Shown: positions 13,239-57,917 of the stretch, in pieces
Position numbering within the stretch: the stretch's first letter is position 1
Layout of the letters: every line of letters begins with the position of its first letter
Assembly (NCBI GenBank): GCA_025200525.1
Contig: CM045762.1
Location: 24,369,374-24,433,373 of the forward strand
DNA: 64,000 bases
Source: Camellia lanceoleosa
Lineage: Eukaryota > Streptophyta > Magnoliopsida > Ericales > Theaceae
Direction: 5' to 3'
Made by a program: the position numbers and the translations under genes
Notes under the pieces: model-generated
Seen by the model: only the letters and a program-made list of their open reading frames with translations
Told to the model about the DNA's origin: nothing
Databases searched by the model: none

Positions 13239-14233
13239 GGGTGTGTTTGGTAACGTTTACGTTTTTAGTTTATATTTACAAAAATTTTATAAACTGGTTT
13301 TTGTTTATTTTTTGTTTCTTTTTAGAAAAACATAAACTACAAACGCGTTTGGTAATTAACAAAATGTTTAAAAAATTTTAACAGTATAAAAAATAGTGAG
13401 AAATAGCAAGTGGTGGCCAGTGGCGGCGGAAGACGGTAGTGAAAAGTGGTGACGGTGGGTGGTGGGTAGCTGGTGGTGGGTGGTGGTAATGGGTGGGTGG
13501 GGGGGTGTGAGCGGGTGGTAGCGAGTGGGTAGTAGTGGTGGTGGTGGCGGGTGGTAGTGGCAGGTGGGTGGTGGATGACAAGTGTTGGTAGGTGGTGGCG
13601 GGTGGGTGGTGGTGGTGGTGGGTAGGTGGTCGGTGGGTGGGTAGCAGTGGCGGTGGTGGGTTATAGCAGTGGGTGGTAGTGGTAACGGTGGTGGCAGTGG
13701 GTGGCAGACGGTGGGTGGTGGCGGGTGATGGTGGGTGGGTGGGTGATGGTGGCGGGTGGGTGACAAGTGGCTGGTGGTGGTGGTGGGTGGCTAGTGGTGG
13801 CTGGTGGTGAATGGTGGTAGTAGCTGGGTGGTGAGTAGTGGTGGCAAGTAGGTGGCGGGTGGTAGTGGCAGGTGGTGGATGGTAGTGGCGGGTGGTGGGT
13901 GGTTGGCAGGTGGATGGTGGGTGGTGGTGGTGGGGGTGGCGGCAAAGGGTGGGTGGTGGTGGCAGGTAGTGGTGGGGGGTGAGTGGTGGTGGCGGAAGAC
14001 AGTGGTGGAAAATGGTGGCTGGGTGGCTAGTGCTGGGTGGTAAAAAAAAAAAAAAACTCAAAACTCAAAACGAAAACACATTTTTTGTGTTTTCATTTTT
14101 TAGCCAAATTTAAAAACTGAGACCACTGATTTATAAATCAAAAATTTTACCAAACAAGTTTTTATTTAAGTTTTTAAAATTTTTGTAAATATAAACAGAA
14201 AACTGAAAACGTAAGTGTTACCAAACGGCATCA
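13239..14233. mobile_element. TIR element carrying a GGT minisatellite
   Basis: The ends are inverted: GTGTTTGGTAACGTTTACGT at left and, inverted, CGTTTGGTAACACTTACGTT at right, continuing through ATATTTACAAAAATTTTA over about 50 bp. The duplicate at about 56209 reads through without it, so this is a discrete insertion; the target duplication looks like 3-4 bp (TAG/ATAG). The core is the G-rich minisatellite. Large Pro/Thr/His-rich minus frames are a by-product of the repeat. Termini beginning near GTGTTTGG suggest a Harbinger-type MITE. Confidence 0.7.
13402..14040 (+). repeat. G-rich GGTGGT/GGTGGGT minisatellite
   Basis: About 640 bp are built of GGTGGTGG, GGTGGGTGG and GGCGGTGG variants; the plus strand is almost free of C. 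Many clusters of four or more GG/GGG runs make quadruplex formation possible on the plus strand. Unit length is irregular (3-12 bp), so the array is degenerate. Confidence 0.85.
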
Positions 14234-14672: not shown

Positions 14673-15009
14673 TGTTGATGGGAGTGGGGTGTAAATCACT
14701 GGTGGTGATTCACAAGAAGAGGCTTAAAAATTGAACCAAACTGAACTTCAATTTATTGAAACAATTTAGAAATAAAAGAGGGAGCTCTCTTCTTCACTTC
14801 TCTCCCACATATTTTTCACTCTCATAATACATGGCTATTTATAGAAGCCTAGACAGTATAAAAACTACAATCATAAATGTGAAACCATAGTGTGAAAAAC
14901 ATGCAGCCTTTGTAGACCTCCTATCTTCAACAATGGTGGGTTGTCAAAGTTGGTAGATGGTTAGCCACCTACCATTATCACCTACCATTTAGCAAGCTTA
15001 TTTTCAACA
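14673..15009 (-). repeat. 3' LTR of copia element 1
   Basis: 337 bp with TG...CA ends in plus sense (TGTTGATGGGAG to TTTTCAACA). It is preceded in element sense by the polypurine tract AAGGGGGGA. TATTTATAG near 14832 is a candidate core promoter. Confidence 0.95.
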
Positions 15010-18000
15010 TCCCCCCTTAAGCTTGATTCTCCATGCTGCTTCATTCCGAGCATTATCTTCATTCTGTTGAATAGATCATTTTTCAACGGCTTCGTGAAAA
15101 TATCTGCAAGCTGATCTTGGGATTTGCAAGACAATAATTCCACCTCTTTATTTTTCACATGCTCTCGGATGAAATGATAACGGGTGTCAATATGCTTACT
15201 TCTTTCATGATAAACTGGGTTCTTCGCCAATGCAATTGCTGAGCGATTATCAACAAAAATCTCAGTGGGTTTTTCTTGTGGAAATCCCAAATGCTTCAGT
15301 ATGTTTCGTAACCATATTGCATGGCACACAGCTGAGTTGGCTGCAACATACTCAGCTTCGCAAGTCGATAATGTCACAATGGCTTGCTTCTTGGATGACC
15401 ATGTGAAAGCTGTATCTCCCATAAAGAAAGTAAACCCCGTAGTACTTTTCCGTTCATCCAAGTCACGTCCCCAATCGCTATCTGAGTAGCCAACAAGACT
15501 GAAATTTTCAGTTGGTTTATTGAATAAACCATCATCGACTGTACCTTTGATGTAGCGAAGAATCCTCTTTGCTGCATAAAGGTGTGACTGATCTGGTGTT
15601 TCCATATATCTGCTGATCAATCCTACTCCATAGAGTATATCTGGCCTGGTACAAGTAAGATAGCGAAGACTTCCAACTAGGCTCTTGAAATAAGTTGGAT
15701 CCACATCACCTGCCTTCGTACCTTTTCTGAGCTCCACTCCACTGTCTCTGAGTGTTGGTCGGATTGCAATTCTCCATTCCATATCGCTTCAGAATTTCCT
15801 TGGCATAGCCACTTTGGGAAATGAAAATTCCATCTTTTCTTTTTGCAACTTCAATGCCTAGAAAATGAGCCATCAATCCAATATCTGTCATTTCAAATTC
15901 TTGGACCATGTTTCTTTTAAAGTCTTTGAACATGGCTGGATTGTTTCCAGTGAAGATTAGATCATCAACATAAAGACAAGCAAGCAACATACTTCCATCA
16001 GCTTCCTTCTTCAAATATAGTGCGTGCTCATATGGACATTTTTCAAAACCATTGTCATGAAAATACTGATCAATTCTAGTATTCCATGCACGCGGAGCTT
16101 GCTTCAATCCATAAAGTGCTTTTTTCAATTTGTACACTTTGTCTTCATACCTATTCTGAACATACCCCAAAGGTTGTTCAATATAGATTTCTTCTTCAAG
16201 GAAATCGTTAAGAAATGCAGATTTTACATCAAGTTGATAAATCTGCCACTTGTGCTGGGCAGCCAAAGAAATCATTAGCCTGATAGTCTCCAATCGGGCA
16301 ACTGGAGCAAACACCTCTCCATAGTCAATTCCAGATCTCTGCTTGTAACCTTTTGCTACTAACCTTGCCTTGTAACGTTGCACTTCGCCTTGTGCATTCC
16401 TCTTTGTCTTGTATACCCATTTCACTCCAATGGGTTTGTGCCCCTCTGGTAGACTGGTAAGCTTCCATGTGTCATTTTTCTCAATGGCATGAATTTCTTC
16501 ATCCATTGTTTTCTTCCAGTTATCTTCTTGGATGGCTTCCGAGAAGGTAAGTGGATCACTATCTGCAAGTAGGCAGTACAGATTCAGATCTACTTCTTCT
16601 GTAGCTTTATATATCTCCTGCAAATTTCTCATTGGTCTTGGTTGTTTGAAAAAACTATCATCTGATGATGCTGATGCTGATGATGATGATGATGCAGCAC
16701 TTCTGTGAGAAATTGGCGATCTAGGTACAGGAATTCTATGTGAAGGAGTCTGTGGCTCATCTTGAACTTCTCTTGTGATTTCAACAGGAGCTTTTGATGT
16801 TTCATCTTCAAGAATGAGTTCTGTATCTTTGACAACTTCATCTTGATTCCAGTTCCAAGCTTCATCTTCTTCAAATATCACATCTCTACTCATGATCACC
16901 TTTTTGGTAATGGGATTATACAACTTGTATCCCATTGTTTTATCTCCATATCCGACAAGGATACATTTTTCTCCCTTATCATCGAGCTTGGTTCTTCTTG
17001 CTTCTGGAATCTTGGTATATGCAACACACCCAAATATTCTGAAATGGTTAACACTTGGCTTATGTGAACTCCAAGCTTCTTCTAGAGTCATAGAATGAAG
17101 GCTCCTGGTTGGGCATCTATTTAGTAGATACACAGCACATGATATGGCTTCAGCCCAAAATTGCTTAGGCATTCCCTTTCCTTTCAACATGCTTCTTGCC
17201 ATATCTAAGATTGTGCGATTCTTCCTTTCAGCAACACCATTCAGCTGTGGCGTATAGGATGGTGTTGTTTGATGCTTGATTCCCTGCTCTTTGCAATACT
17301 TCTCAAAAGCATCTGATGTATATTCTCCGCCTTGATCTGATCACAATGTCTTGATGTAGTAGCCGCTTTGCTTCTCTACAAAAGCTTTGAATTCTTTGAA
17401 GATGTTGAACACCTCCGACTTTCTTTTAAGAAAGTACACCCATGTCTTCCGGCTATAATCATCAATGAAGGTGAGAAAGTATCTATTCTGTCCATTTGAC
17501 ATTGGCTTCAATGGACCACACACATCAGTGTGCACTAGCTCCAACGGCTTTGTTGCTCTCCACTTCACTTCTTTGGCAAAGCTAGTTCTGTGATGCTTAC
17601 CAAGAATGCAGCTTTCACAGACTTCATTAGTATGAGCAATATGAGGTAACCCTTTTACCATATTCTTGCTTGACAACAGCTTCAAGCTTCCAAAGTTAAG
17701 ATGTCCAAACCTCAAATGCCATAGCCAGTATTTGTCTTTGATGATGACATTTAAACACTTCGCAGCATCATGTTGGATGTTCAATGCAAACATCCGATTC
17801 TTGGACATTCTCACCCGAGCGATCAAATTACCATGATTGTCTTTGATGGTAAGATAACAATCTTTCATGCTGATGTCGTATCCTTTCTCTAGGAGTTGTC
17901 CCATACTCAAAATGTTGTTCTTCATGGCAGGAACATAATACGCATTGGAGATGTAATCATGATCTCCATTCTTGAGCTTAATTAGAATATTACCTCTTCC

Positions 18001-19164
18001 TTTCACTGGAGTCTTTGATGAATCACCAAATGAGACTTGTGCTTATACAGTCTCGTCAAGCTCAACAAATAGCTCTCTTTTACCACACATGTGATTGCTG
18101 GCTCCTGAATCTAGATACCAAACATTGTTTTGGTTTTTAGTGTCTCCATGGTGAACAAACAGAACTGTAGGTCCAACTTTGTTTGTTTCCTGCTCAGCAA
18201 AATTTGCTTGCTCACGGCCTTGTTGTTGCTACTTGGCATTCATTCTTTGTAATGCGAACTTGTGACACTGGTAACACTGAACATTACTTTTGTCAAAACC
18301 TGGTCGGTTGTTGTAACCACCTCCTCTACCGCTTGCTCTTCCTCTTGGAGCAAAGTGTGGTTGACTTCTTCCTCCTCTGGCTGGACTTCTTCTGCCTCTT
18401 CCTCGAAAACCAAAATTTTGGTTATTGTAACCACGACCTCTTCCTCGGCTTCTTTATGATGTCCCCCCTTGCTCGTTTCTGTCATCTCTGAAAGACAGCT
18501 TTGATTGAAGAGCTTGTTCTAGAGAACTTGATGAAGTCTTCTTGTTGATCCTTTGTTCATGAATCTCAAGTGTGCCCATCAACTCATCGGTGGTCATGGC
18601 ACTGAGATCTTTGGACTTTTCTATTGCTACAACCACGTGCTCGAACTTGGAACTGAGTGATCGGAGAATCTTTTCTATCACTTGAAGAGATTCCATCTTC
18701 TCTCCATATCTTCTCATCTGATTAACAATGGTCAATATTCTGTTGAAGTACTCAGAAATTGACTCATTCTCATTTATGTGTAGCATCTCGAATTCGCCAC
18801 GTAACACCTGTAGTCGAACTCTGATCGTCTTCTCAATTCCACGGTGTGAATTTCGAAGAATACTCCATGCCTCTTTAGAGGTTGTTGCTGCTGAAATCTT
18901 CTCAAAACTTGACTCATCAATACCTTGATAGAGTAGATACAAGGCTTTTTTATCTCTTCTCCTTGAATCTTTTAACGTTGTCTTCTGACCATCATTTAAA
19001 CTTCCTTCATCTTCGAGAGTAGCTAGCTCGTCATATCCTCGATCCACTAACTCTCACAAATCTTGTGAGGCTAGTAGGACTTGCATTTGAATACTCCAAT
19101 TTTCATAGTTCTCCTTGCTGAGTTTCGAAAACTGGGGCTGAAAGAAGTTGTTTATGTTGGCCAT
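15010..19164 (-). pseudogene. Copia element 1 gag-pol polyprotein (broken)
   Basis: Order is gag, protease, integrase, RT, RNase H. Gag starts at 19164 (MANINNFF). A stop replaces a Trp codon at 19056-19054. The CCHC knuckle region (about 18290-18240) is frameshifted. Protease LDSGASNHM is near 18110. Gln-to-stop lies at 18045-18043. Integrase retains HTDVCGP and NGVAERKN, but an Arg-to-stop (CGA to TGA) at 17343-17341 falls directly before SDQGGEY. RT (17202-15706) has [10 protein letters not shown] and [10 protein letters not shown] 2-bp loss near 15745 shifts the frame into RNase H, which ends near 14982 (SKHIDTRYHFI, DIFTKPL). All domains are present but none of the polyprotein is readable end to end. 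Confidence 0.95.
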
Positions 19165-19823
19165 TGGTTGTCTTTAAAATTCTGCAAATTTTCAGAATGG
19201 AATTTGCCAATTCTGACCGTACAGATGTGTCTGGAATATTCCAAATAGTTGGAAAGCACTATTGGATCACCCGAAACAGACTCCGAATGGCTCAGATCAA
19301 GCCAAAACAAGTTGAACGGCTCAGATCTGAGGATGCAACTTAGCCGCGGCACACTGGATTAATCTTGTGCGGCTCAGTCAATGGCTACGGTTAGTGGCTT
19401 GGACCGGCTCGGGTCAACAAAGGCTCGGCTCGGTCAAACGGCTCTGGTCAACGGCTTGGCGGCTCGGCTTGGATGACGTCAACAGATGACGTCGTCAATG
19501 ACGTCAGACTTGGATCCGTATCTGGGTTGGCGGATCGGATCTCGGGTCAAGCTCTGGAATTCAGGCGAAGAAGACTCGTGGAGCGCGTGCCGGCGCGTGA
19601 GAACGACGTCAGGGAGGCGCGTGTGGTGCGTGCAGTTTCTGTGAGGCTCGGTTTTTGATGTTCTTTTTTTCAGTGTGATCGTCTCGTCGAGAGCTTCAAT
19701 CTGGTATGATCAAAAATTGATTTCGACCACTTTGATTTCTGGGCAACTTTCAAAATCACACTCTGTTTTTGCAAATTTGCAGAATTTCTGCAAATTCAAA
19801 CTACCTTCGGGCTTTGATACCAC
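19165..19823 (-). other. Leader of copia element 1 (PBS to gag)
   Basis: The untranslated leader between the 5' LTR and gag. It contains the tRNA primer site at 19822-19811 and a GC-rich segment (about 19320-19640) with CGGCTC/GGCTCGG and TGACGTCA motifs. No protein is supported. Confidence 0.8.
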
Positions 19824-20160
19824 TGTTGGTAGGAGTGGGGTATAAATCACTGGTGGTGATTCACAAGAAGAGGCTTAAAAATTGAACCAAACTGAACTTC
19901 AATTTATTGAAACAATTTTGAAATAAAACAGGGAGCTTTCTTCTTCACTTCTCTCCCACACATTTTTCACTCTCATTATACATGGCTATTTATAGAAGCC
20001 TAGACAGTATAAAAACTACAATCATAAATGTGAAACCATAGTGTGAAAAACATACAGCCTTTGTAGACCTCCTATCTTCAACAATGGTGGGTTGTCAAAG
20101 TTGGTGGATGGTTAGCCACCTACCATTATCACCTACCATTTAGCAAGCTTATTTTCAACA
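19824..20160 (-). repeat. 5' LTR of copia element 1
   Basis: 337 bp, aligning gap-free with the left LTR at about 97% identity. In element sense it starts TGTTGAAAATAAGCTTGCTA and ends next to the primer-binding site. Confidence 0.95.
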
Positions 20161-20831
20161 GAGAGGAGGGGAGGGGGGGAATTGGCAAAAAATTAAATCT
20201 ATGGGTAAAATTCTGAAAAAAAAAAAATTATAAATTCATGTGTAAGAATTAAAGTTCCACACTGAGTGAGTGTAGTGACAAAAAACAATACAAAAAATGC
20301 AATATGTGTTTATATATATGTATATCCCAATAACATGATTAACATTCATTCATGAAGGGAGGGATGTAGGTATTAGATAAATAGAAATAGAACTCAAATT
20401 ACCTTTTTGTCCTCTTCCTCTTCTTCTCCTGCTGCTGTTTCTTAGTTCTATAAATTATTTTTTCTTTGCTTTGTTGCTTGAGTGAATTCTTTTTTCTTTT
20501 CAATCATATTTATATTACAGAATGCTTGAAATGGAGTTAAAGAATCCTCCTCATGCTATTTCTTACTTTTTCATATTCTTTCCTTGCTTTGTTGCTTTAG
20601 GTTGTATTTGGATTATAAATTTAGATTAAAAAAAAAAAAAAAATTGGAAACAAAAAGAAAAATGCAAGTAAAAAGTGAGTGAGTGAAATATAAGCTAATC
20701 TTTTTTTCCTATTTTCCTTATACTTTTTTTTTTCCTTTTCTGTTTCTAAATCTTTACCTAAGTTTATAATCGAAACACAACCTTGCTAAATTCCTTTTAT
20801 TCTCAAGTTGTTCTTTATTATAGTGAGCACG
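20161..20831. other. Duplicated flank (three copies in window)
   Basis: No gene. The stretch is homologous to about 56690-57490 (interrupted there by a solo LTR) and in part to about 49700-50280. It includes TTACCTTTTTGTCCTCTTCC at about 20400, shared with the flank of gene B, which could be a 5' UTR or exon border. The last 13 bases (20819-20831) are the SINE target duplication. Confidence 0.6.
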
Positions 20832-21030
20832 CCTAGTCTAGTTAGTTACCATGCTTTTCTTAGGGTTTAGTCTTAAAAAGGTTATGGGTTCAATTCCCCT
20901 TAGGGGAGTTGAATTAAGAGAGTGCAAGCACTTAAGTGCTTTGCCAAGGGTGGGGAGATTTTCTCCCATAAGTGCTAATCTAACAACTAACAACTAACAT
21001 TTGCCGATCAAATAAAAAAAAAATTTTTTT
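20832..21030 (+). mobile_element. tRNA-derived SINE
   Basis: About 199 bp flanked by the perfect 13-bp repeat TATAGTGAGCACG (20819-20831 and 21031-21043). It contains a polymerase III B-box-like GGTTCAATTCC at about 20888, a possible A box about 40 bp upstream (TAGTTAGTTACC), and an A/T-rich tail (AATAAAAAAAAAATTTTTTT). The related site at 57478-57510 lacks it. Plant SINEs have this architecture. Confidence 0.8.
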
Positions 21031-21059
21031 TATAGTGAGCACGCACTACTACAAAAATA

Positions 21060-21720
21060 GTTAAAGAACACACTTTGAGAAAAAAAAAATCTCACTTTTA
21101 TTGGAAGTGTGATAAAAAAATTACATTGATATTTTTATCACACTTAATTTGATTGAGTGTGATAATATTTATTTTTTATGTTACTTTTCAATTAAGTGTG
21201 ATTATGTATACACTACTACTTTTTAATCACACTTTTTAAATAAGTGTGATTATAAATATATTTTTTAATCACACATTCTAATTAAAGTGTGATTATATAT
21301 ACACTACTACTTTTTAATCACACTTTTTAAATAAGTGTGATTATAAATATATTTTTTAATCACACATTCTAATTAAAGTGTGATTATTTATATATTTTTT
21401 AATCACACTTTCTAATTAAAGTGTGATTATATATACACTTCTACTTTTTAATCACACTGTTTAAATAAGTGTGATTATAAATATATTTTTTAATCACACA
21501 TTCTAATTAAAGTGTGATTATACATACATTACTACTTTTTAATCACACTTTTTAAATGAGTGATTATATATATATATATATATATTTTTTAATCACATAT
21601 TCTAATTAAAGTGTGATTATTTATATATTTTTTAATCACACATTCTAATTAAAGTGTGATTATATATACACTACTACTTTTTAATCACACTCCCTAAATA
21701 TGTGTGATTGTATAAAATAT
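21060..21720. repeat. 5' subterminal repeat array of CACTA element
   Basis: Repeated palindromic units of the type AATCACAC(A/T)TT...AAGTGTGATT, separated by TATATA-rich spacers and CACTACTACTTTTT. In this superfamily subterminal repeats are transposase-binding sites. The palindromes could form hairpins. Confidence 0.85.
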
Positions 21721-23267
21721 TCCAATTTGATTTTTATATAAAATATACAATTCCCAAATTTGCGCCTCTATTCTACACCTATGAATGACAGAGGACGACT
21801 CTTTCCATCCCCAACAAGGTTGAATTTCGCAAACACACAGGTCTCTTCTCCTCACTACAACAAGTTTTCACGGATTCACATTAACGACATACAGTAAATG
21901 CAAGCCGTGGTAAATAAAAATATCTCACTTTTAATGGAAGTGTGATTAAATAAAAAAGGCAAATTACACTAACAGTCCCTATAGTTTGGGACTCGTGTCA
22001 CTTTGGTCCTTGACTTTTAATTTAGATACATTTGACCATGAATTTTGAATTTTGATCCAAATAAGGACAATTGAAGATACCATTGTTTAATTTCAAGGGC
22101 AAAATCATCAATTTAATAAAATATAAACTAATTTGACAAAAATAAATGTCAAAAAAATATTTTTAATTTTTTTTTTAATTTTTTTTAACCACCAATGATA
22201 AAATTATGTAAAATTGATAAAAATTAATAAAAATTACGGGATTAATTTTTTAAAATTAATTTTACATGATCATTATCCAAACAAATAATAAAAAATAATT
22301 TGGTAAAAAAATAAATAAATGTCTAAAAGATTTATCAATTTTACATAATTTTATTTTTAGTTTGTAGAAATAATTTTAAAAAATTCAAAAATATTTGTTT
22401 GACATTTATTTTTCTCAAATTAGTTTATAATTGTATCAAATTGATGATTTTACCGTTGAAAAATCTAATGATATTTTCAATTATCTTTATTTAGAACAAA
22501 ATTCAAAATTCAGGAGATAAAATAAAATAATATTATTTATTAAAAATATGATAATTATATTTAATTTTTTGGATTTTTTCTCTCGTAAATAAAATTTTAT
22601 ATGTAAGTTTAAGAGTTTTGTTTCATATGTTTCTTTACTATAATATTTACTCATCAACATATATTAAAATTGTTGTATTGACAATTAACAATTAAAATTA
22701 TGCTTTATTATAAAAAAAAATAACATAGTTCTAATACTTTATTATTTTAGAATAAAAATATATGAATTTTAAAAAATTATTATATTGGTTTTTGAAAGGA
22801 AAATAATTTAAAAACTTAATATAAGAAAGGATTATCATAAAATGTAATTTAAAACATCAAAAAAAAGTTAAAAATAAATAAAGACTTTAAAAAGTTGTGA
22901 TTACAATTAAAACTAATGTCATATTTATTAACTAGAAATTAATGATATTGCAACATATGCATTTTAACAATTTTTTAGTCTATTTATTGATTTGGGCAAA
23001 ATCTCCTGATCAATATTTAAAATCCCCTCATACAAATAATTATAGATACAAGCTATGTATAATTACTGTAGTACCATTTTCAACTTCTCTCTTATATATT
23101 ATAATTAGTAATAAAATTATTAAATTATTTTTATAAAAAATTTTTAAAAAAAATATAATTTATATATTAAAAAAAATCTAAAATAAATATAAATATTTAT
23201 AATTATTCTGTTGTGATAGGCTAGTTTTTAAAAATTTAAAAGCCCAAACCGAGCGTAGTTTGGACGG
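21721..23267. other. CACTA interior upstream of captured gene
   Basis: AT-rich, no gene. It includes a second CACTA-like terminus (CACTACAACAAGTTTTCACG near 21857), a truncated MULE-like arm (about 21958-22515, beginning GCAAATTACACTAACAGTCC), and the immediate 5' flank of the captured gene, which may carry its former promoter (AAAGCCCAAACCGAGCG just before the first ATG). Confidence 0.5.
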
Positions 23268-23529
23268 ATGATAGCCAAAACCATGAAAGCAACCCTAAAG
23301 CGTGCAAGTTCAAGCGTCTCAATGGAAATGGAAATCGATCCTCCGAAGAAGCCAGAAGTCGGAGCAGAAGCAATCAACGACGATGACTTCTTCAATGCCG
23401 CCGAAAATGGCGACTCTTCCTTCTTCGAAGCTCTTTCACACGATCAGCTTCTCAAAGCCCTCTCTCTCAGGAACGAAGATTGCAGCTCGCTCCTCCACGT
23501 CGCCGCCTCTTCAGCTCACCCCAAGGTTC

Positions 23530-23565
<36 letters not shown>

Positions 23566-25741
23566 CCCAAATCAAAGGAAAGAAAAGAAAAGAAAAATCA
23601 TCTTTTTTACTTACCAAAACTACTGTTAGGGTTTAAAGGATTTGTCTTTATTTACTTATTCTTCGTTTGTCTGAGCAATTAAATCAATAATCTGTTTGTC
23701 ATACACATTTTCTGTTGATTTTGGGGATCATTTTGTAGGAAAATCGAACCTTTTAGTCGAATTTTCATCTGCTGGCTCTCGTTGACATGCATTGTACTAT
23801 TCCGTTTTTGAAATTTTGATCTTGATGCTTTTTTTTTTTTGAATGAATTGATTAGGTTGTGAAGATACTATCAGCTATAGATCCATCTGTAACTGGTATA
23901 AACAGTGCGGATGAGGAGGGCTGGGCGCCACTTCATTCCGCATCTAGCAGTGGGAATTTAGAAATTGTGGAGATTTTGCTCAGCAGCGGTAAGGAATTGT
24001 TATCAAGTTCCAAAAGAGTTTCTATTATTTGTTTCAAGTTTGTGTTGGATGGTCTTCAAAATAAGTCCAAGCTAGTTAGTTGTATGTCATAGGAACAAAT
24101 ATGTCTTTCAAGAGAAAGAAAAAAATTTGGGAGAAGAAGACTGCATGAATGTGAGTGATTGGTTGCTTGCAAGTCCAGTGCACTGGCTCAGAGTTGTTGC
24201 TTTAGTTATTGTGAGAATTTTAAGGCTGGCAAGGTTATTTTATATTAACTGTAACTAATATGGTATCATTCATGATGTAATGGTGCAGACTAGCACAAGT
24301 ACTCTTTTTAGATTAGAGGAAGTATGTTTTGAGAGATTCTATTTCATGGAGACCTTTAAAAAATGTGTGTTTGTTCGTGTAGCTTGCTTTAATGGGTGAA
24401 TTCTTCATTTTATCTTTCTAATTGTTTGTGTTTGTGTTCAAGCAGCTTGCTGATTCTGTGCAGTGTGTTGTACCTTCAATATGCCAATTTCTGTGAGGTT
24501 AAGGGTGGTCAAGGGTGTGAGAATGCTAGATGACTACTAGTCTCAAAAGCTTAAACTGTGAGATGTTAAGAAATGGACCAAACAATGCATATCAAGCTTT
24601 TTAACACCCTATTTCACGTGTAATCCTGACTTGCACAGCTAGATGCAATCATTCAAACATAGAGAAAAATAGAATGTACATGGAAAACCAATGCAGACAA
24701 AGAGACTTAAGCCTAAAACTTTTCACCACTAGTCCCAACAGCTTATCTATTAGGAAAGCACCCAACAATGCATATCACTCCAACAAAAACATTATTAAGT
24801 AGGATGAATTTGGGGACAAAAAATCATTAATACAAAGATGAATTGGTGACACCACCTATTTGTCTTTGACATAAAATGATATCTCTGATTGAATCACTCT
24901 TGAATCATATTCCACAGAGTAAATTGTGATATGAAGAATAGAGTTTTATATATTCATTGATGATTGATCCATCAATCGTTGGTGTATGTCCTTTGCTTAT
25001 GGATTGCTATGCTTTGACCTCAATGTGGTGAGCCTCCCAAGTACCATCTCTTTTCTTTGAGGTACTTGAGACATTTGGTACTATTATAGGAAATGGTGTG
25101 CATGATGTGACCCATTAACTGATAGTGTGTTACTAATTGTGCCTTCAATTGGTTTTACGAATGTTATTGAACAATTTTTGCTGGTGTTTTTATAGGATCT
25201 ATCTTGAGTATACTTGGAGTTTTTTTCTTTCTATTTGTTCAAATTAGCCATTTAGCCAAAGTTTGTAGTTTCTTGTCAAAGTGATATCATCGTATATCAA
25301 CATCGACATTTTTTAAACTTCTGCTGAATGCACAGGGGCTAATGTTAATTTGAAAAATAATGGTGGTCGTACTGCTCTTCATTACGCTGCTAGCAAGGGT
25401 TGGTTGAAAATAGCTGAAATTCTACTTTCACATGGTGCAAACATCAATTTGAAGGACAAGGCATGTAACTTCACACTATTGCCTTTTTGCTTTTATATAT
25501 ATATATATACTTTCATTAATCTTGTTTTGTGCTGCTGATAGCATAGGTCTTGGACTTCTTCCCTCAATATTTGGTTGGTTTTAATTTCTTTTAGGTTGGA
25601 TGCACCCCTCTGCATCGTGCAGCAAGCACAGGGAACTCAGAGTTGTATGAACTTTTAATTGAGGAAGGAGCTGAGGTTGATGCTATTGATAAAACAGGTC
25701 AAACTCCCCTAATGAGTGCAGTAATATGCGAAAACAAAGAG
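23268..25741 (+). CDS. PSMD10-like: PSMD10/gankyrin-like ankyrin protein, captured, 3'-truncated
   Basis: PSMD10 family proteins are ankyrin-repeat chaperones for assembly of the 26S proteasome regulatory particle. Exons: 23268-23525, 23856-23988, 25336-25460, 25595-25741; junction phases join without a stop. In-frame ATGs lie at 23268, 23283 and 23322. The last gives [10 protein letters not shown], resembling the family N-terminus, and is the likely start. Ankyrin repeats are clear: [44 protein letters not shown]. Intron 3 has a GC donor (AAG|GCATGT); the others are GT-AG. After the fourth exon, where the final repeat should follow, only transposon sequence is found. Retained introns show DNA-level capture. 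Expression is unknown. Confidence 0.85.
23532..23563 (+). repeat. (CT)n microsatellite in intron 1 of captured gene
   Basis: About 16 uninterrupted CT units seven bases after the exon 1 donor. Confidence 0.9.
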
Positions 25742-26700
25742 GTAATTATTATTGTTATCAAATCCTCGAAAACTTGACGCATAAAAAATTCATTGGACTT
25801 TTATTTATGTAATTATGTTAACCTAAGCTATTGCAACATGCGTTCTATTTATGTCTTAATTTTCAATTTGTCTAGTAGATTAAGGCCATCTGGAATTGAG
25901 TTGTATTACCAAACAAACATATCTGTGTTGCCTTTCAGACTCATCTTTCTTTAACTTCTAGGGTGCATTTTGAGGGTGGATTTCGATTGGAAAGAGCTTT
26001 CTAAGCTCCAATTCTATATTCCAGCATCTGGATATCTAGCAGATTGAATTCTATAATTCCTCAAGACCCTGTAACATATTGGATGGCCAAATCTTTAGTT
26101 CAATTTCCAATTTAAATTTTTTTAATTTGTTAGTTTTAGTCTTCAGGAATTTGCTAATCAACTATTAGTATAATTATGGTGTGTGACATGTGTCAGTTGT
26201 GTAGTGCTGATAGTGGCGACACTGATAGCAGCCACGCCAGTGGTGCTGTTGTGCCAATGTTAGTGTTTTTTCAAAGAGCTTTGTGGTGGTGATGATGCCA
26301 TTGGCAGTGGTGTGTCAATGTCACAACTTAGTGGGTGTTTGGGAAGTGCCTATTTTTTTAGGCTTTTTGACTTTTTGGCTATTTTAGTAAGCTATTTTAG
26401 TTTTTGTGTTTAGAAAGATGGGATGAAGTTTTATTTGAGTTATTGTATTGAAAAATGTGTTTGAAATGATGTTTGAGGTTGAAATGACAAATTTGTCCTT
26501 AATCCCATTTTATTTCAAAATTGATGTAATGGGGCAAAAGTGTAATTTACTACAGTGGGACAGCTTGCCAAGTACAGTGGTAGGCTGTCAGTGCCAAAAA
26601 TGTAGGCTGTTGAGCTACATTTTTTTTAAAAATGTAAGTCAATAAAATAGCCTATCCCACTGCTTTCCAAACACCGCCTTAATGTACTTGATACAAATAT
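25742..26700. other. Region joining captured gene to CACTA body
   Basis: Contains the start of the intron after PSMD10-like exon 4 (GTAATT donor at 25742) and the capture junction, whose exact position I cannot place, plus a Harbinger-like MITE. The expected final exon of the gene is not found. Confidence 0.5.
26331..26678. mobile_element. Tourist/Harbinger-like MITE inside CACTA
   Basis: 348 bp with TTA on each side (26328-26330, 26679-26681). The termini GTGGGTGTTTGGGAAG and, inverted, GGCGGTGTTTGGAAAG match. A TTA target and this terminus fit PIF/Harbinger MITEs. Confidence 0.7.
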
Positions 26701-27813
26701 GATGAAGCCATAGACATTCCACTAGAGAAAGACATATTTGGAGAGGAGATTAATATCCAACTTCAAAGAGTAGACATGGAGTACATATGTCATGTAAAAG
26801 AATTACCTGTTACATGTATCATGTTGTACATAAGGTAAGGAAAATTTGCTACATCAATAGTTATTTTTGCAGATTTTATGAGTTACGAATTTAATTAAAA
26901 TTAGTTTATTTTATTAGTCATCTCCATCAAGTGTTGAAGGCTTCCAATTGGAGGAAACAATTTGTATTTGTTAACCCTTGTATCGTTAGTGGAAAAACAA
27001 TGGCTGGGGAGAAATCAAAATCAGTGTTGTTTGCAAGAAGATTAGAGGAGGCTATGCTAGAACAATTGATTTTAATTCTTTATAATATCGGGTAATTATC
27101 TAAAACTATTTATTTCATGTGTTCAAATGATAATAAACTTATTAAGCTTATACTTGTGACTTGTTCAATTGTAGGTAACATTAGATATTGTTAGTCATTG
27201 ATCTAACATTGATGATTGTGTACTTGCTCGATCCGATTAATTCTAAAATAAACACAAGTTTTGAAATTGTAATAAAAACGTAAGTTTGGCTAGTTCGTAC
27301 ATTTTTAAGCATTTTGAGTTACTCTAAAAATATTTTGACATCTGAAATTTCTTTTGTAAAGTGTTTTGAAAATTTATGAAACTACCCAAAGGAGGAGGAC
27401 CAATTCAGTTTGGAAAGTAGTTCAGGTAATCAATATCATTTTCTCTAATTTTATCATATATTTATGCTAATGATTGTTCAACTTGATCATAACACTTTAT
27501 ATATAGTTTCTAATAATAATGAAAATACTTTTATGTAGTCTCCGCAACAACCTACAAACGTGGAATGTGGGTTTTATGTAATGCGGTATGTGAAAGACCT
27601 CATTGGAGATCAAAGCAACCTAAGAAAACAAAATGTGAGATAAATTCTAAACTTTTGTTACTATTATATTCATGATACTTGTACATCTTCTTCATTATTT
27701 AATTGTTTGTAAATAACCTTTTGTAGTTCAATGGAAAAAAAACTTACACGGAAATCGAACTTGATGAAGTGCGAGTTGAATGGATTAATTTCGTACTAAA
27801 AAATATGAGTTGA
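26701..27813 (+). pseudogene. Ulp1-like (C48) protease relic of CACTA element
   Basis: Plant CACTA and related elements often carry a Ulp1/SENP-like cysteine protease gene. Exon-like pieces: 26701-26834 (KELPVTCIMLYIR), 26918-27091 (VLKASNWRKQFVFVNP), about 27358-27425 (VLKIYE), 27540-27634 (QPTNVECGFYVMRY, with the catalytic-Cys context) and 27727-27813 (ELDEVRVEWINFVL, then stop). Splice borders look conventional. The segment that should hold the catalytic His and Asp, between 27091 and 27358, is not recognisable, and the N-terminus is absent. Probably inactive. Confidence 0.75.
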
Positions 27814-28485
27814 AATCCAATGTAAGTATGATATAACTTCCGTTTTTTAAATTACTAATCAACAATTTCTTTAGTTGGTAAAGAATATATAATCACTTCA
27901 AGATTTCATTTTAAATTTGTTGATTCTATGTATATTTGGTTTTATGACTTTAAAATATTTGCTCATACATTGAAGATTTTCATTTTGGATTTATTGATTC
28001 TATGTATATGTCATATTTATATATGGTAATCTAAACATTTTATATTAGTAACAATCAAAGTTATTATTTCTTTTCTATTGATGCAGGAGATGAAGAGTCA
28101 GTGTGATGAGAAAATGTTCGATTTTTGTCTTTTGTAAGTCTCTACAAAAATATTAAGTTTATTCATATGTTTCTAGCCGTTTCTGAATTAATTTGTGTTT
28201 TTATTTTTCAGATCAAAAATTTCTTGGAGAAATGCAAAATATGGTCAAAGAATTCAACAACTTAGTTTTTTCAAGTTTTTTTTTTATTTTTTTATATATG
28301 TAAGTACAGTTAAATTTTTTTTACTAATTCGTTTGTATATACTTTTTTGACATTTAACTTTCATTTATGAAATATATGACGTTATTCCATTCAATATATG
28401 GTTGTGATTCAAAATATAGTATATAGTATGTATTACATTCTTCAAATGCATATAATATGTGATCTTATCTGATTATTAATCACGT
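27814..28485. other. CACTA interior, AT-rich
   Basis: No gene. Two exon-like scraps follow splice-type AG (near 28087 and 28212), but neither carries a recognisable domain. Confidence 0.3.
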
Positions 28486-29060
28486 ATTTTATTAGATATT
28501 AATCACACTTAAAATATGTGATCTAAATGTTTATTATTACATGTTTTATTAGTTATTAATCACACTTAAAAGATGTGATCTAAATGTTATTAATCACACT
28601 TAAAAATGTGATCTAAATATTTTTAATCACACTTAAAATGTGTGATCTAAATATTATTAATTACACTTAAAAGATGTGATCTAAATATTTTCAATCACAC
28701 TTAAAATGTGTGATCTAAATATTATCAATCACACTTAAAAGGTGTGATCTAAATAATGTTATCAATCACACTTAAAAGGTGTGATCTAAATGTTTTTAAT
28801 CACACTTAAAAGGTGTGATCTAATATTTTTAATCACACTTAAAATGTGTGATCTAAATGTTATTAATCACACTTAAAAGGTGTGATCTAATGTTTTTAAT
28901 CACACTTAAAAGGTGTGATCTAAATGTTGTTAATCACACTTAAAAAGTGTGATTAAAAATGACTCATTTTAATCACACTCTCAAAGATCACACTTTAATA
29001 AAACTTAAAAAGTGTAATTAAATAACAAATATCACACAAAAAAAATGTGATATTTATATG
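28486..29060. repeat. 3' subterminal repeat array of CACTA element
   Basis: More than a dozen units of AATCACACTTAAAAGGTGTG followed by ATCTAAAT, each a small palindrome, with period about 33-40 bp. It shares AATCACAC with the 5' array but has a different spacer, and is denser and more regular. Confidence 0.9.
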
Positions 29061-29074
29061 TTTTTGTAGTAATG

Positions 29075-30083
29075 ACGCATTAATAATTTATATTCCAAAT
29101 ACAACCTTCCTGAATTCCTTTTATTCTCAAGTTATACTTTATCATAATGAGTACACATTAATAAAGGGAGAAAAAAAAGAATGACATCGTACTGAAACCT
29201 TGCTTCACCATTCTATCAAGTATTTAATTCTTTTTGTAATGCTATGTTTGGTTTATTGGAATGAGTTGAAATATAATGATTATTTCATTTATCAAAATAT
29301 TTATTCTCACGTTTGGCTCACTAATGTTGTGTTTGGATAATAGATTTAATAGGATTTGAAAAAGGCAAAGTAAGACGACTGAAGTGAGATTTTAGTGAAA
29401 TTGTAAAAATTAAAATTAGATTTTGATAAGGTATAAGGGTGCTAATAAATCTACTACTATTATAATAGTGTGAAGGATCTGTCATATTTTTTACATTTTT
29501 AAATCTCAATTTTACCCTCTCAAATTTGCTATATTTTCTAAGAGTCTGTTATATTTTCTACTTTTACTCTTCAAAATATTTTTATTACAATGAGTTATAA
29601 TGGTGAGTAAGAAGAAAAACACCAAGATGGTGAAACAAAAATTACAAAAGATCTATTGCAACATCTTTCCAAGCAAAGTTAGACGGACTGAAGCAGGAAT
29701 TGTCATATTTGTTGTGAAATTCAAGAAAAAAAATATACCTCATGCACACATTTTAGTCAAATTGCAAGAAAGAAATTAAAAAAAAAAAAAAATGATGCCC
29801 AAACATTATCGCAACAACTCAATGATCCATAAAGTAATTATATCAAAAAAGAATTTGATCAATTTTTGTCATATGATGATTACTTACAAATAACATAATA
29901 AATTATGTAATTTGGCAGTTTCATAAAAGTGACCCTACAAACACTTATAAGTATGAATCTATAAATATCGTGAAAACAATTATGAAATTCCTATATTGAT
30001 CGAAATATTAAGTTATAATATCATTCCATTTTCTTAAAAAAACTATTCCACATTTTCTACATAAATGAAAATATACTAATGAC
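29075..30083. other. Intergenic DNA between CACTA and copia element 2
   Basis: No gene. The first 450 bp are homologous to about 57502-57917 in the duplicated unit (CTTGCTTCACCATTCTATCA at about 29200 and 57639); the copy there is cut by copia element 4. The final five bases ATGAC are element 2's target duplication. Confidence 0.65.
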
Positions 30084-30416
30084 TATTGAAAATAAGCTTG
30101 CTATATGGTAGGTGATAATAGTGGCCAACCATCCACCAACTTTGACAACCCACCATTGTTGAAGATAGGAGGTCTACAAAGGCTGCATGTTTTTCATACT
30201 ATGTTTTCACATTGAATAATTGTAGTTTTATACTGTCTAAGCTATCTATAAATAGCTATGTATTATGAGAGTTAAATTGTGTGGGAGAGAAGTGAAGAAG
30301 AGAGCTCCCTGTTTTATTTCAGAATTGTTTCAATAAATTGAAGTTCAGCTTAGTTCAATTTTTAAGTCTCTTCTTGTGAATCACCACTAGTGATTTACAT
30401 CCCACTCCCACCAACA
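30084..30416 (+). repeat. 5' LTR of copia element 2
   Basis: Starts TATTGAAAATAAGCTTGC, ends CCACCAACA. TCTATAAATAGC at about 30244-30255 is a likely TATA box. Confidence 0.95.
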
Positions 30417-30429
30417 GTGGTATCAGAGC

Positions 30430-31045
30430 CCGAATGTAGCTTGAATTTGCAGAAATTCTGCAAATTGCAAAAATAGAGTGTGATTTCGAAAGTTGTCCAG
30501 AAATAAAAGTGGTCGAAATCAATTTTTGATCATACCAGATTGAATCTCTCGACGAGACGATCACACCGAAAAAAAGAACGTCGAAAACCGAGCCTCACAG
30601 ATGCCGCACGCGCCACACGCGCCTCCGTGACGCCGTTCTCATGCGCCGACATGCGCAAACGCGCTCCACGCGTCTTCTTCACCCAAATTGCAGTGCTTGA
30701 CCCGCGATCCGATCCGCCAACCCAGATCCGGATCCAAGTCTGACGTTATTGACGACGTCATCTGCTGACGTCATTCAAGCCGAGCCGCTAAGCCGCAGAG
30801 CCGAGCCGGTCCAAGCCGTTGACCGTAGCCGTTGACTGAGCCGCATCGAAATTAATCCAGTGTGCCGCGGCTAAGCTGTAGCCTCAGATCTGAGCCGTTC
30901 AACTTGTTTAGGCCTGATCTGAGTCATTCAGAGTCTGTTTCGGGTGATCCAATAGTGGTTTCTAACTATTTGGAATATTCCGGACACATCTCAGATCGAA
31001 TTTGCAAATTCCATTCTAAAATTTGCAGATTGTTAAAGACAACCA
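30430..31045 (+). other. Leader of copia element 2
   Basis: Untranslated leader from the primer-binding site to gag. It carries the same GC-rich GAGCCG repeats and GACGTCA motifs (about 30745-30850) as element 1's leader. Confidence 0.8.
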
Positions 31046-34000
31046 ATGGCCAACACAAACAATTTCTTTGTTGATTTCCAAAACTTAGTAAGGAGAACTA
31101 TGAAAATTGGAGTATTCAAATGCTAGTTCTACTAGCCTCACAAGATTTGTGGGAGTTAGTGGATCGAGGAGATGACGAGCTACTCTCGCAGATGAAGGAA
31201 CTTTAAATGATACTCAGAAGACGGTGTTAAAAGATTCAAGGAGGAGAGATAAAAAGGCCTTGTATCTACTCTATCAAGGCATTGATGAATCAAGTTTTGA
31301 GAAGATTTCAGCAGCAATAACCTCTAAAGAGGCATGGAGTATTCTTCGCAATTCACACCGTAGAATTGAGAAGACGATCAGAGTTCGACTACAGGTGTTA
31401 CGTGGCGAATTCGAGATGTTGCACATGAATGAGAATGAGTCAATTTCTGAGTACTTTAATAGAACATTGACCATTGTTAATCAGATGAGAAGATATGGAG
31501 AGAAGATGGAATCTCTTCAAGTGATAGAGAAGATTCTCCGATCACTTAGTTCTAAGTTCGAGCACGTGGTTGTAGCAATAGAAGAGTCCAAGGATCTCAG
31601 TGCCATGACCACCGATGAGTTGATGGGCACACTTGAGATTCATGAACAAAGGATCAACAAGAAGGCTTCCTCAAGTTCTCTAGAGCAAGCTCTTCAATCA
31701 AAGCTGTCTTTTAGAGATGACAGAAACGAGCAAGAGGGGACATCACAAAGAAGCCGAGGAAGAGGTCGTGCTTATAATAACCGAAGTTCTGTCTTTCGAG
31801 GAAGAGGCGGAAGAAGTCCAGCTAGAGGAGGAAGAAGTCAACCACATTTTGCTCCAAGAGGAAGAGCAAGCGGTAGAGGAGGTGGTTACAACAACCGACC
31901 AGGTTTTGACAAAAGGAATGTTCAGTGTTACCATTGCCATAAGTTCGGGCATTACAGCAATGAATGCCGAAGTAGAGCAACAACAGAAGCCGGCGAGCAA
32001 GCAAATTTTGCCGAGCAGGAAACAAACAAAGTTGGACCTACAGTCCTGTTTGTTCACCATGGAGACACTGAAAACCAAAACAATGTTTGGTATCTAGATT
32101 CGGGAGCCAGTAACCACATGTGTGGTAAAAGAGAGTTGTTCGTTGAGCTTGATGAGACTGTACAAGCACAAGTCTCATTTGGTGATTCTTCAAAGACTCC
32201 ACTGAAAGGAAGAGGTAATATTCTGATCAAGCTGAAGAATGGAGATCATGATTACATCTCCAATGTTTATTATGTTCCTGCTATGAAGAACAACATTTTG
32301 AGTATGGGACAACTCCTAGAGAAAGGATACGACATCAGCTTGAAAGATTGTCATCTTACCATCAAAGACAATCATGGTAATTTGATCGCTCGGGTGAGAA
32401 TGTCCAAGAATCGGATGTTTGCATTGAACATCCAACATGATGCTGCGAAGTGTTTACGTGCCATCATCAAAGACAAAGACTGGCTATGGCATTTGAGGTT
32501 TGGACATCTTAACTTTGGAAGCTTGAAGCTGTTGTCAAGCAAGAATATGGTGAGAGGGCTCCCTCATATTGCTCATACTAATGAAGTCTGTGAAAGTTGC
32601 ATTCTTGGTAAGCATCACAGAACTAGCTTTGCCAAAGAAGCGAGCAACAAAGCCGCTGGAGCTAGTGCACACTGATGTGTGTGGTCCATTGAAGCCAATG
32701 TCAAATGGACAAAATAGGTATTTTCTCACCTTCATTGATGATTATAGCCGGAAGACATGGGTGTACTTTCTTAAAAGAAAGTCGGAGGTGTTCAACATCT
32801 TCAAAGAATTCAAAGCTTTTGTAGAGAAGCAAAGCGGCTACTACATCAAGACATTTGATCGGATCAAGGTGGAGAATATACATCAGATGCTTTCGAGAAG
32901 TATTGCAAAGAGCAGGGAATCAAGCATCAAACAACACCATCCTATACGCCACAGCTGAATGGTGTTGCTGAAAGGAAGAATCGCACAATCTTAGATATGG
33001 CAAGAAGCATGTTGAAAGGAAAGGGACTGCCCAAGCAAATTTGGGGTGAAGTCAGATCATGTCTCAGGTATCTACTAAATAGATGCCCAACCAAGAGCCT
33101 TCATTCTATGACTCAAGAAGAAGCTTGGAGTTCACATAAGCCAAGTGTCAACCATCTCAAAATATTTGGGTGTGTTGCGTACACCAAGATTCCAGAAGCA
33201 AGAAGAACCAAGCTCGATGATAAAGGAGAAAAATGTATCCTTGTTGGATATGGAGATAGAACAATGGGATACAAGTTGTATAATCCCATTACCAAAAAAG
33301 TGATCATGAGTAGAGATGTGATATTTGAAGAAGAAGAAGCTTGGAACTGGAATCAAGATGAAGTTGTCAAAGATGCAGAACTCATTCTTGAAGATGAAAC
33401 ATCAAAAGCTCCTGTTGAAATCACAAGAGAAGTCCAAGATGAGCCACAAACTCCTCCACATAGAATTCCTGCACCAAGATCGCCAATTTCTCACAGAAGT
33501 GTTGCATCATCATCATCATCAGCATCATCAGATGATAGTTTTTTCAAACAACCAAGACCAATGAGAAATTTGCAGGAGATATATGAAGCCATAGAAGAAG
33601 TAGATCTGAATCTGTATTGCCTACTCGCAGATAGTGATCCACTTACCTTCTCAGAAGCCATCCAGGAAGATAAATGGAAGAAAGCGATGGATGAAGAAAT
33701 TCATGCCATTGAGAAAAATGACACATGGAAGCTTACCAGTTTACCAGAGGGGCACAAACCCATTGGAGTGAAATGGGTATACAAGACAAAGAGGAATGCA
33801 CAAGGCGAAGTGCAATGCTACAAGGCAAGGTTAGTAGCAAAAGGTTACAAGCAGAGAGCTGGAATTGACTATGGAGAGGTGTTTGCTCCAGTTGCCCGAT
33901 TGGAGACTATCAGGCTAATGATCTCTTTGGCTACCCGACAAGTGATGGTTATCAACTTGATGTGAAATCTGCATTTCTTAACGGTTTCCTTGAAGAAGAA

Positions 34001-35143
34001 ATCTATATTGAACAACCTTCGGGGTATGTTCAGAATAGGTATGAAGACAAAGTGTACAAATTGAAGAAAGCACTTTATGGATTGAAGCAAGCTCCAAGTG
34101 CATGGAATACTAGAATTGATCAGTATTTTCATGACAATGGTTTTGAAAAATGTCCATATGAGCACGCACTATATTTGAAGAAGGAAGCTGATGGAAGCAT
34201 GTTGCTTGCTTGTCTTTATGTTGATGATCTAATCTTTACTGGAAACAATCCAGCCATGTTCAAAGACTTTAAAAGAAGCATGGTCCAAGAATTTGAAATG
34301 ACAGATATTGGATTGATGGCTCATTTTCTAGGCATTGAAGTGGAACAAAGAAAAGATGGAATTTTCATTTCCCAAAGTGGCTATGCCAAGGAAATTCTGA
34401 AGCGATATGGAATGGAGAATTGCAATCCAGTCAACACTCCTGTAGACAGTGGAGTGGAGCTCAGAAAAGGTACGAAAGCAGGTGATGTGGATCCAACTTA
34501 TTTCAAGAGCCTAGTTGGAAGTCTTCGCTATCTTACTTGTACCAGGCCAGACATACTCTATGGAGTAGGATTGATCAGCAGATATATGGAAACACCAGAT
34601 CAGTCACACCTTTATGCAGCAAAGAGGATTCTTCGCTACATCAAAGGTACAGTCGATGATGGTTTATTCAATAAACCAACTGAAATTTCAGTCTTGTTGG
34701 CTACTCAGATAGTGATTGGGGACGTGACTTGGATGAACGGAAAAGTACTACAGGGTTTACTTTCTTTATGGGAGATACAGCTTTCACATGGTCATCCAAG
34801 AAGCAAGCCATTGTGACATTATCAACTTGCGGTTGGTATGTTGCGTACCAACTCACCGTGTGTCATGCAATATGGTTACGAACATCTTTGAAGCATTTGG
34901 GATTTCCACAAAAAACCCAAAGGAGATCTATGTTGATAATCGTCAAAGAATTGCATTGGCAAAGAACCCAGTTTATCATGAAAGAAGTAAGCATATTGAC
35001 ACCCGCTATCATTTCATCCGAGAGCATGTGAAAAATAAAGAGGTGGAATTATTGTCTTGCAAATCCCAAGATCAGCTTGCAGATATTTTCACGAAGCCGT
35101 TGAAAAATGATCTATTCAATGTAATGAAGATAATGCTCGAATG
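31046..35143 (+). pseudogene. Copia element 2 gag-pol polyprotein (broken)
   Basis: Gag begins at 31046 (MANTNNFF) but small deletions near 31075 and 31180 shift the frame. The longest open stretch, 31224-32675, covers the gag C-terminus with an RG-rich tract, the CCHC knuckle CYHCHKFGHYSNEC, protease LDSGASNHM and the pre-integrase region. Integrase continues in another frame (32569-32958, HTDVCGP) and is shifted again near 32857, beside the second catalytic Asp. RT follows in two frames (32997-33965 and 33962-34816: [18 protein letters not shown]). RNase H (34729-35143) is shifted again and ends with DIFTKPLKND. At least six frame breaks; defective despite young LTRs. Confidence 0.95.
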
Positions 35144-35176
35144 AAGCAAAGATGGAGAATCAAGCTTAAGGGGGGA

Positions 35177-35509
35177 TATTGAAAATAAGCTTGCTATATG
35201 GTAGGTGATAATAGTGGCCAACCATCCACCAACTTTGACAACCCACCATTGTTGAAGATAGGAGGTCTACAAAGGCTACATGTTTTTCATACTATGTTTT
35301 CACATTGAATAATTGTAGTTTTATACTGTCTAAGCTATCTATAAATAGCTATGTATTATGAGAGTTAAATTGTGTGGTAGAGAAGTGAAGAAGAGAGCTC
35401 CTTGTTTTATTTCAGAATTGTTTCAATAAATTGAAGTTCAGCTTGGTTCAATTTTTAAGTCTCTTCTTGTGAATCACCACCAGTGATTTACACCCCACTC
35501 CCACCAACA
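35177..35509 (+). repeat. 3' LTR of copia element 2
   Basis: About 98% identical to the 5' LTR, collinear and gap-free. It follows the polypurine tract directly. Confidence 0.95.
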
Positions 35510-57357: not shown

Positions 57358-57917
57358 TAACATAATTGACATTCATTCATGAAGGGAGGGATGTAGATTT
57401 TTTTCTTTTCCTTTCCTAAATCTTTACCCAAGTTTATAATCCAAGCACAACGTTACTAAATTTCTTTTATTCTTAAGTTGTACTTTATTATAGTGAGCAA
57501 CCATTAATAAAAGAAGAAAAATATTCAAATTTATAATCCAAATACAACTTTTCTGAATTCTTTTTATTCTCAAGTTATACTTTATCATAGTGAGCACGCA
57601 TTAATAAAGAGAGGGAAAAAAAGTGGCACCATACTAAAACCTTGCTTCACTATTCTATCAAGTATTTAATTCTTCTTTTATTTTTTTTGATGTTGTGTTT
57701 GGTTCATTGGAATGAGTTGAAATATAATAATTATTTCATCTATCAAATAATTTATTTTCATGTTTGGTTCACTAATGTTGTGTTTGGATAATAGATTTCA
57801 GTAGGATTTGAAAAAGGCAAAGTAAAATGATTGAAGTGAGATTTTAGTGAAATTATAAAAATTAAATTTGATTTTAATAAAGTATAGGTGTGCTAATAAA
57901 TCTGCTATTATTATAAC

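Follow-up and report, generated by a model that had tools for sequence, protein, structure and literature searches.

The 64,000-nucleotide stretch of Camellia lanceoleosa (oil-tea camellia) DNA analysed here and called the window below (contig C5, positions 24369374-24433373 of a 3.0-Gb assembly in 790 contigs) contains a CACTA transposon of 8031 bp (21044-29074) that has taken up part of a host gene, PSMD10, encoding a gankyrin/Nas6-like proteasome-assembly chaperone. Very probably this is an apparently non-autonomous element of Tpn1-like or Pack-CACTA type bearing a DNA-level, intron-containing copy of four of the five PSMD10 exons, exons 1-4, and the captured gene is most likely on its way to becoming a pseudogene. 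That a CACTA element had captured an intron-bearing PSMD10 gene was already proposed in the initial annotation of this sequence, and the proposal is borne out by resident loci that keep exon 5 and show no CACTA arms in the 20 kb fetched, by two breakpoints of host homology, by recurrence of the cargo/transposon junction elsewhere in the genome, and by an empty paralogous site. Coordinates of the features are collected in Table 1.

By both sequence and fold the cargo is PSMD10, whose orthologues are characterized by binding of the Rpt3 ATPase and participation in proteasome assembly. Its exons 1-4, when joined, form 203 open codons, and a protein search with these residues returned 585 matches, the 120 listed being plant or unnamed proteins with P0001, the public annotation of the window locus itself, at the top; among the matches listed many are named 26S proteasome non-ATPase regulatory subunit 10, and others are named otherwise. 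AlphaFold2 predicted most of the ankyrin part with a pLDDT (predicted local distance difference test score) above 90. In the fold search gankyrin structures came 7th (3aji) and 21st (1uoh) among the best 50, most others being designed ankyrins. The sequence search of PDB did not single out gankyrin within its best 60 rows, since long ankyrin arrays dominate there. Complete relatives (P0002, P0007, and others) carry a fifth exon with the last ankyrin repeat and the C terminus; it was sought in the element and not found, and reading past exon 4 meets 11 codons of intron 4 and then a stop. The captured PSMD10 is therefore truncated: the fully open frame over four exons with introns, as initially described, is there, but the gene is not whole. 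The GC donor of intron 3 was considered as a lesion and rejected, because the same donor stands in the two resident copies on contigs C6 and C294, in the C12 pair, and in two other element copies (C3 and C6:125.98 Mb), C2 not being counted in this comparison; it is thus inherited.

Far from being the only PSMD10 gene of the genome, a situation the initial annotation had allowed for, the window copy has close relatives elsewhere. A genome search with the 203 residues, in which 150 of 603 candidates were scored and gave 131 matches (the copy count is accordingly a lower bound), yielded 21 exon-level rows with at least 80% identity at 8 loci, all remaining matches being no more than 46% identical. 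Among the seven loci outside the window, around each of which 20 kb was fetched, exon 5 is present at four: C6:142.7 Mb, C294, C12:85.92 Mb, and C12:86.49 Mb. Neither a subterminal arm nor an Ulp1 match was found in the 20 kb around any of these four, and no end motif came closer than two mismatches (1-4 such sites at each locus). The locus at C6:142.7 Mb alone is open in all five exons; C294 has stops and frame breaks in exons 2 and 4, and the C12 pair has a stop in exon 4 and retains only the end of exon 1. The intact C6 gene is also the closest locus over most of the cargo (95.9% over 24882-26696 and 92.8% over 23307-24734). Directly 5′ of the start codon at C6:142.7 Mb (L037) and C294 (L038), resident PSMD10 is split from its upstream flank by a transposon some 2.65 kb long, whose inverted ends GGGCCATTTCCCTAA measure 15 bp and which is bordered by an 8-bp duplication AGTTCAAG.

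Homology to C6:142.7 Mb spans 23225-26690. Its left limit lies 97 bp ahead of the start codon, and its right limit immediately follows a miniature inverted-repeat transposable element (MITE) in intron 4 that we take to be hAT-like by its ends; the Ulp1 coding sequence of the element starts at most 5 bases further on. Retention of the gene's own 5′ flank, raised as a possibility in the initial annotation, thus holds for 97 bp (23225-23321) and no more: between 22000 and 23225 the only similarities to resident loci are a 74-bp AT-rich match at 76% in C6 and C294 and, near the C12 pair, a 77% relative of the foldback insert. The 29-bp 3′ junction between cargo and Ulp1, searched with up to 3 mismatches allowed, occurs four times in the genome, each time with 0 mismatches, against 0 for the control. 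Besides the window copy, these sites are at C2:28.75, C3:117.06, and C6:125.98 Mb, and the sharing of one junction by four places speaks for one capture followed by amplification. All three are CACTA elements, so other copies with the same 3′ junction do exist, but they hold PSMD10 exons 3-4 only. Both ends are present in the C3 and C6:125.98 copies, flanked by ACT/ACT at C6:125.98 and by AAT versus AAA (one mismatch) at C3; the C2 copy has the left end and arm, loses homology some 200 bp inside the Ulp1 part, and shows no right end. In these three, the left arm is common with that of the window copy up to about 21761, after which a different module extends to 24299 in place of exons 1-2; it includes a P450-like reading recognized by eye, the Pfam P450 match coming from the related element L015. 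In the tree of the segment 24300-26300 element copies stand apart from resident ones with 92% ultrafast bootstrap.

The site before insertion is represented by a paralogous copy within the window, whose flanks correspond to those of the element on the left (20728-20829 and 57398-57499, 88%) and on the right (29085-29465 and 57528-57916, 87%). When the flanks are joined and aligned with the paralogue, the alignment is ungapped at the insertion point over 31 bases to the left and 7 to the right, followed by a 19-base gap, and 260 of 295 aligned bases are identical overall. The target letters are AAC at the empty site versus ACG at the element.

The element itself has CACTA-type terminal inverted repeats (TIRs), a 3-bp target-site duplication (TSD), and subterminal arrays, which are the features of CACTA (En/Spm) transposons. 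Of what had been described for its ends, the ACG duplication and the arrays were confirmed on both sides; the matched termini need qualification, as the left one is exact and the right one, still recognizable, carries one mismatch. Five end-motif sites are listed in the window, and only the two element ends have fewer than two mismatches, the other three having two. Genome-wide, the exact 14-mer of the TIR occurs 1626 times (829 + 797) versus 860 (444 + 416) for its reversed control, hence about half of exact matches are background. Twelve plus/minus TIR pairs spaced by about 1.5-10 kb were hand-picked on contig C1 and fetched for comparison: related arrays accompany both ends in 12/12, and the 3-bp flanks are identical in 10, mismatched in one (L012), with the remaining one (L016) ending before its flank. 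None of these 12 has a PSMD10 match. Pieces of other host genes are found in 4/8 large elements, namely SelO in L009, P450 in L015, chromo and GH85 in L016 (these three by Pfam), and a U11/U12-48K piece, identified by homology, in the middle of L012; L012 and L014 were Pfam-negative, and L010, L011, and L013 (low-complexity frames) were outside the scan. The variety of cargos in L009, L012, L015, and L016 means that the family captures host genes repeatedly. The window copy is alike L012 in the left arm up to 22512 and in the right part from 27630 (91% each), and the presence of differing modules between shared arms marks the elements of this family as modular.

Table 1. Features of the CACTA element, its PSMD10 cargo, and the empty site (window coordinates)
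Feature	Position	Strand	Remarks
TSD, left copy	21041..21043		ACG
Left TIR CACTACTACAAAAA	21044..21057	+	0 mismatches
Left subterminal repeat array	21183..21721		43/91/134-bp periods; related array in 12/12 fetched elements, best matches 79-90%
Foldback-like insert	22000..22512		also in sister element L012, 93%
Captured host segment	23225..26690	+	PSMD10 exons 1-4 and introns 1-3, preceded by 97 bp of 5′ flank and followed by the initial part of intron 4
PSMD10 exon 1	23322..23525	+	
PSMD10 exon 2	23856..23988	+	
PSMD10 exon 3	25336..25460	+	followed by the inherited GC donor
PSMD10 exon 4	25595..25741	+	exon 5 not found in element
MITE in intron 4	26330..26690		limits approximate; shared with the resident loci C6 and C294, unmatched in C12 pair
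Ulp1/peptidase C48 relic	26691..27813	+	the element's own gene
Ulp1 exon stretches, first three	~26695-26832, 26904-27092, 27173-27280	+	limits of second approximate; third is His exon with two stops
Ulp1 exon stretches, last three	~27337-27425, 27539-27634, 27727-27813	+	limits of 27337-27425 approximate; 27539-27634 is Cys exon
Right subterminal repeat array	28454..28957		34/57/67-bp periods; related array in 12/12 fetched elements
Right TIR CATTACTACAAAAA	29061..29074	-	1 mismatch (CATTA)
TSD, right copy	29075..29077		ACG
Paralogous empty site	57398..57916	+	both flanks matched; without element and SINE-like insert (SINE, short interspersed nuclear element)

Next to the cargo lies the element's own Ulp1 gene, correctly recognized from the beginning as a relic. 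A catalytically intact Ulp1 in the window copy was considered and dismissed: the His exon has two stops, the Cys exon being present, and its peptide reached 15.8 bits against Pfam PF02902, below the cut-off of 20.7. In the copies at C3 and C6:125.98 the first Ulp1 exon stretch is frameshifted, and in 3/3 pairs the exonic divergence of Ulp1 (3.4, 4.4, and 2.1%) is higher than the noncoding one (3.2, 2.0, and 1.8%). Public gene models join the two genes. P0001 is annotated as 281 residues, consisting of 18 residues from upstream, 203 encoded by PSMD10 exons 1-4, and 60 from two Ulp1 exons, and fusion of PSMD10 exons 1-4 to Ulp1 exons is found in six records, P0001 and five from C. sinensis, out of 11 proteins found to have the Ulp1 tail. 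One fusion junction is common to P0001, P0003, and P0045, and the other three fusion models use others; among further C. sinensis proteins, P0004 and P0010 end in intron-4 read-through, and P0049 and P0056 enter the Ulp1 region by other routes. The Ulp1 tail of the fusion was predicted by AlphaFold2 with pLDDT of about 39-54. These models look as if genes had been predicted from a decaying template. Judging by the C. sinensis records, the capture may be older than the split of C. lanceoleosa and C. sinensis.

The route of capture that we infer begins with a single event in which PSMD10 intron 4, just past the MITE, would have been joined to the Ulp1 gene of the element, and exon 5 would thereby have been left behind. 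The composite would then have been amplified and reshuffled, giving the four places with the 3′ junction, three of them with another module instead of exons 1-2. The element presumably moves by cut-and-paste with transposase supplied in trans, and its cargo may give chimeric or truncated transcripts in which exon 4 is spliced into Ulp1 exons. No conserved product of the cargo is indicated, and it is probably without function.

Several observations weigh against the reading of the cargo as a decaying gene taken from one donor by a non-autonomous element. First, its four exons are still open. Second, of 120 positions at which four outgroup plants do not vary, the captured protein has 6 altered and the resident C6 protein 8 (the corresponding numbers are 3 for C. 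sinensis gene P0002 and 8 for each of the fusion proteins P0003 and P0005). Third, the ratio of nonsynonymous to synonymous divergence (dN/dS, omega by the Nei-Gojobori method, NG86) is 0.42 for the window copy versus C6, but the value is averaged over host and element branches, and the substitution data do not show constraint on the cargo. C294, with its frame breaks, and C2:28.75 were left out of the dN/dS estimates, and exon-3 codons of C2:28.75 were excluded. Fourth, over the tract 23475-23974 the window copy resembles the C12 pair (95-98%) more closely than C6 (88-94%), so that the donor cannot be reduced to a single simple sequence. At sites distinguishing C12 from C6/C294, the window copy follows C12 in 19 of the first 24 and in 14 of the later 71 (P 3e-7; the cut was picked by eye, and cuts at 28 and 34 give 3e-5 and 3e-4), the simplest reading being that the tract would come from a later exchange with a C12-type gene. 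Finally, the apparent non-autonomy of the element is judged from its lack of long open frames: the only two stop-to-stop frames of at least 120 codons inside it both lie over PSMD10 exon 1.

Divergence of exons and introns bears on the same question. In the captured lineage, exons 3-4 acquired 3 nonsynonymous changes (two of them shared with C6:125.98) versus 3 synonymous, codon 148, common to three element copies and unclear in direction, being excluded; against neutrality this gives P 0.14, or 0.04 with window-private changes only (1 to 3). Exons 3-4 are more diverged than introns in 5/5 comparisons involving the window copy: 13/272 versus 25/1530 for differences from C6 (P 0.0025), 10/272 versus 47/1676 for C3, 9 versus 27 for C2, 17 versus 53/1661 for C6:125.98, and 20 versus 64/1322 for C12:85.92. 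Within 23475-24299 the exonic share of differences is higher against C6 and slightly lower against C12.

Among other explanations, the one given a small chance is that the cargo acts via RNA, with transcripts or small RNAs of the element silencing or tuning resident PSMD10. The similarity of the four element copies to the resident C6 gene, 95.1-97.8% over 24300-26330, is consistent with this, and silencing triggered by captured sequences is described in a review (PMC13317346). A still smaller chance is assigned to expression of the captured gene as a functional protein, truncated or fused to Ulp1, that would serve as a new or decoy proteasome chaperone; such a role of the cargo, anticipated in the initial annotation, seems unlikely. 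The fusion is annotated both at this locus and in the five C. sinensis records, the ankyrin part is predicted confidently with gankyrin structures among its fold matches, and nonsynonymous changes in exons 3-4 are fewer than the neutral expectation, not significantly so. However, P0001 is not independent evidence because it annotates this very locus, only 3/6 fusion models share a junction, the fusion tail is poorly predicted, the divergence of Ulp1 exons matches or exceeds that of noncoding sequence, exons 3-4 exceed introns in divergence throughout, and exon 5 is missing. Even fainter is the prospect that a CACTA-made chimeric gene, with PSMD10 exons 1-4 spliced to the Cys-containing exons of Ulp1, has spread and been kept in at least two Camellia species, its product or a tail-less intron-4 form competing with resident PSMD10 in proteasome assembly; if so, the competitor would operate in a species where the transposon of about 2.65 kb precedes the start codon of the single intact resident copy found. 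As for the possibility that a resident PSMD10 gene just happens to lie between CACTA repeats, only the position of the gene between the two ends speaks for it, and it was rejected in view of the loci having exon 5 elsewhere and none found here, the junction found at four places, and the empty paralogous site.

The surroundings of the element are rich in other repeats. A SINE-like insert (20832-21030) with duplicated TATAGTGAGCACG on both sides and an internal GGTTCAATTCC box, which we take to be a B-box pattern, is separated from the left CACTA end only by its own duplicated target bases and is absent at the paralogous site. The CACTA element is flanked by two oppositely oriented copia-type long terminal repeat (LTR) retrotransposons of one family (14673-20123 and 30084-35476), their end repeats (300 nt) being 97% and 99% alike. 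Segmental duplication links about 8-14.5 kb of the window with 49.3-57.9 kb, at an offset of 41-43 kb and in pieces 79-95% alike; relics of membrane-protein genes near it are presumably DUF4220/DUF594-like. At 53321-55045 three pairs of inverted arms, 86-90% complementary, make up a large foldback structure, and a minisatellite reading as Pro/Thr/His runs is located at 13300-14100, outside the element; the same minisatellite (about 73%) is found in the elements at C2, C3, and C6:125.98 Mb, some 4.0-4.8 kb into the fetched 20-kb stretch. An Rfam scan of the whole window gave no match.

Taken together, the locus adds a clear new example of a process already known, with no evidence of a new working gene. 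The presence of the resident gene, both breakpoints, the empty site, and sister copies in one genome makes it a well-documented capture, and one Camellia CACTA family turns out to take up several host genes. It also calls for caution, as public gene models of "26S proteasome subunit 10" in Camellia include transposon chimeras; were the fusion translated, it would offer a tractable case of transposon-made gene birth. Judging by titles among the best literature matches, no paper on CACTA gene capture in Camellia came up, which does not deny that one exists, and the combination of gankyrin, transposon, and plant gave, by title, nothing on the subject.

Among known systems, Tpn1 elements proper are characterized by a 28-bp TIR and by TnpA/TnpD acting in trans. 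The Tpn1 family of Ipomoea nil consists mostly of non-autonomous CACTA elements with 3-bp TSDs, subterminal repeats, and interiors made of host genic regions, some of which are transcribed into chimeric RNAs (PMC5105172). The Camellia element is alike in being apparently non-autonomous and of similar size and in having 3-bp TSDs, subterminal repeats, and a host genic interior, whereas it differs in keeping the Ulp1 relic beside the cargo; it belongs to a Tpn1-like or Pack-CACTA-type family. Pack-CACTA and, more broadly, Pack-TYPE elements hold host coding DNA between transposon ends (PMC8903248, PMC13317346), and this is what is observed in Camellia: intron-bearing host sequence, a related resident locus, and differing cargos in sister elements. 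The module exchange fits the hybrid-element model summarised in PMC13317346; the difference lies in a cargo of four open exons with introns standing beside a transposon gene. Captured gene fragments are also reported for CACTA elements of Chenopodium (PMC8978399). Cactavine families of grapevine include CACTA elements with an Ulp1 protease domain (CACTA-ULP; PMC2528002), and the Camellia element likewise carries this domain, but in a broken state and with its 5′ part replaced by the captured gene. Soybean Tgm-Express1 is a CACTA element with host gene fragments keeping their exon/intron structure, for which spliced chimeric transcripts with chimeric open reading frames were found by reverse transcription PCR (PMC1947982). 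In element type and in retention of exon/intron structure the Camellia case is similar, while Tgm-Express1 contains five unrelated fragments, resides in an intron of a host gene, and has its transcription demonstrated. What appears distinctive for the latter is the combination of an intron-bearing cargo open over four exons, a predicted potential for in-frame splicing into the element's own gene, and a full local record of the capture.

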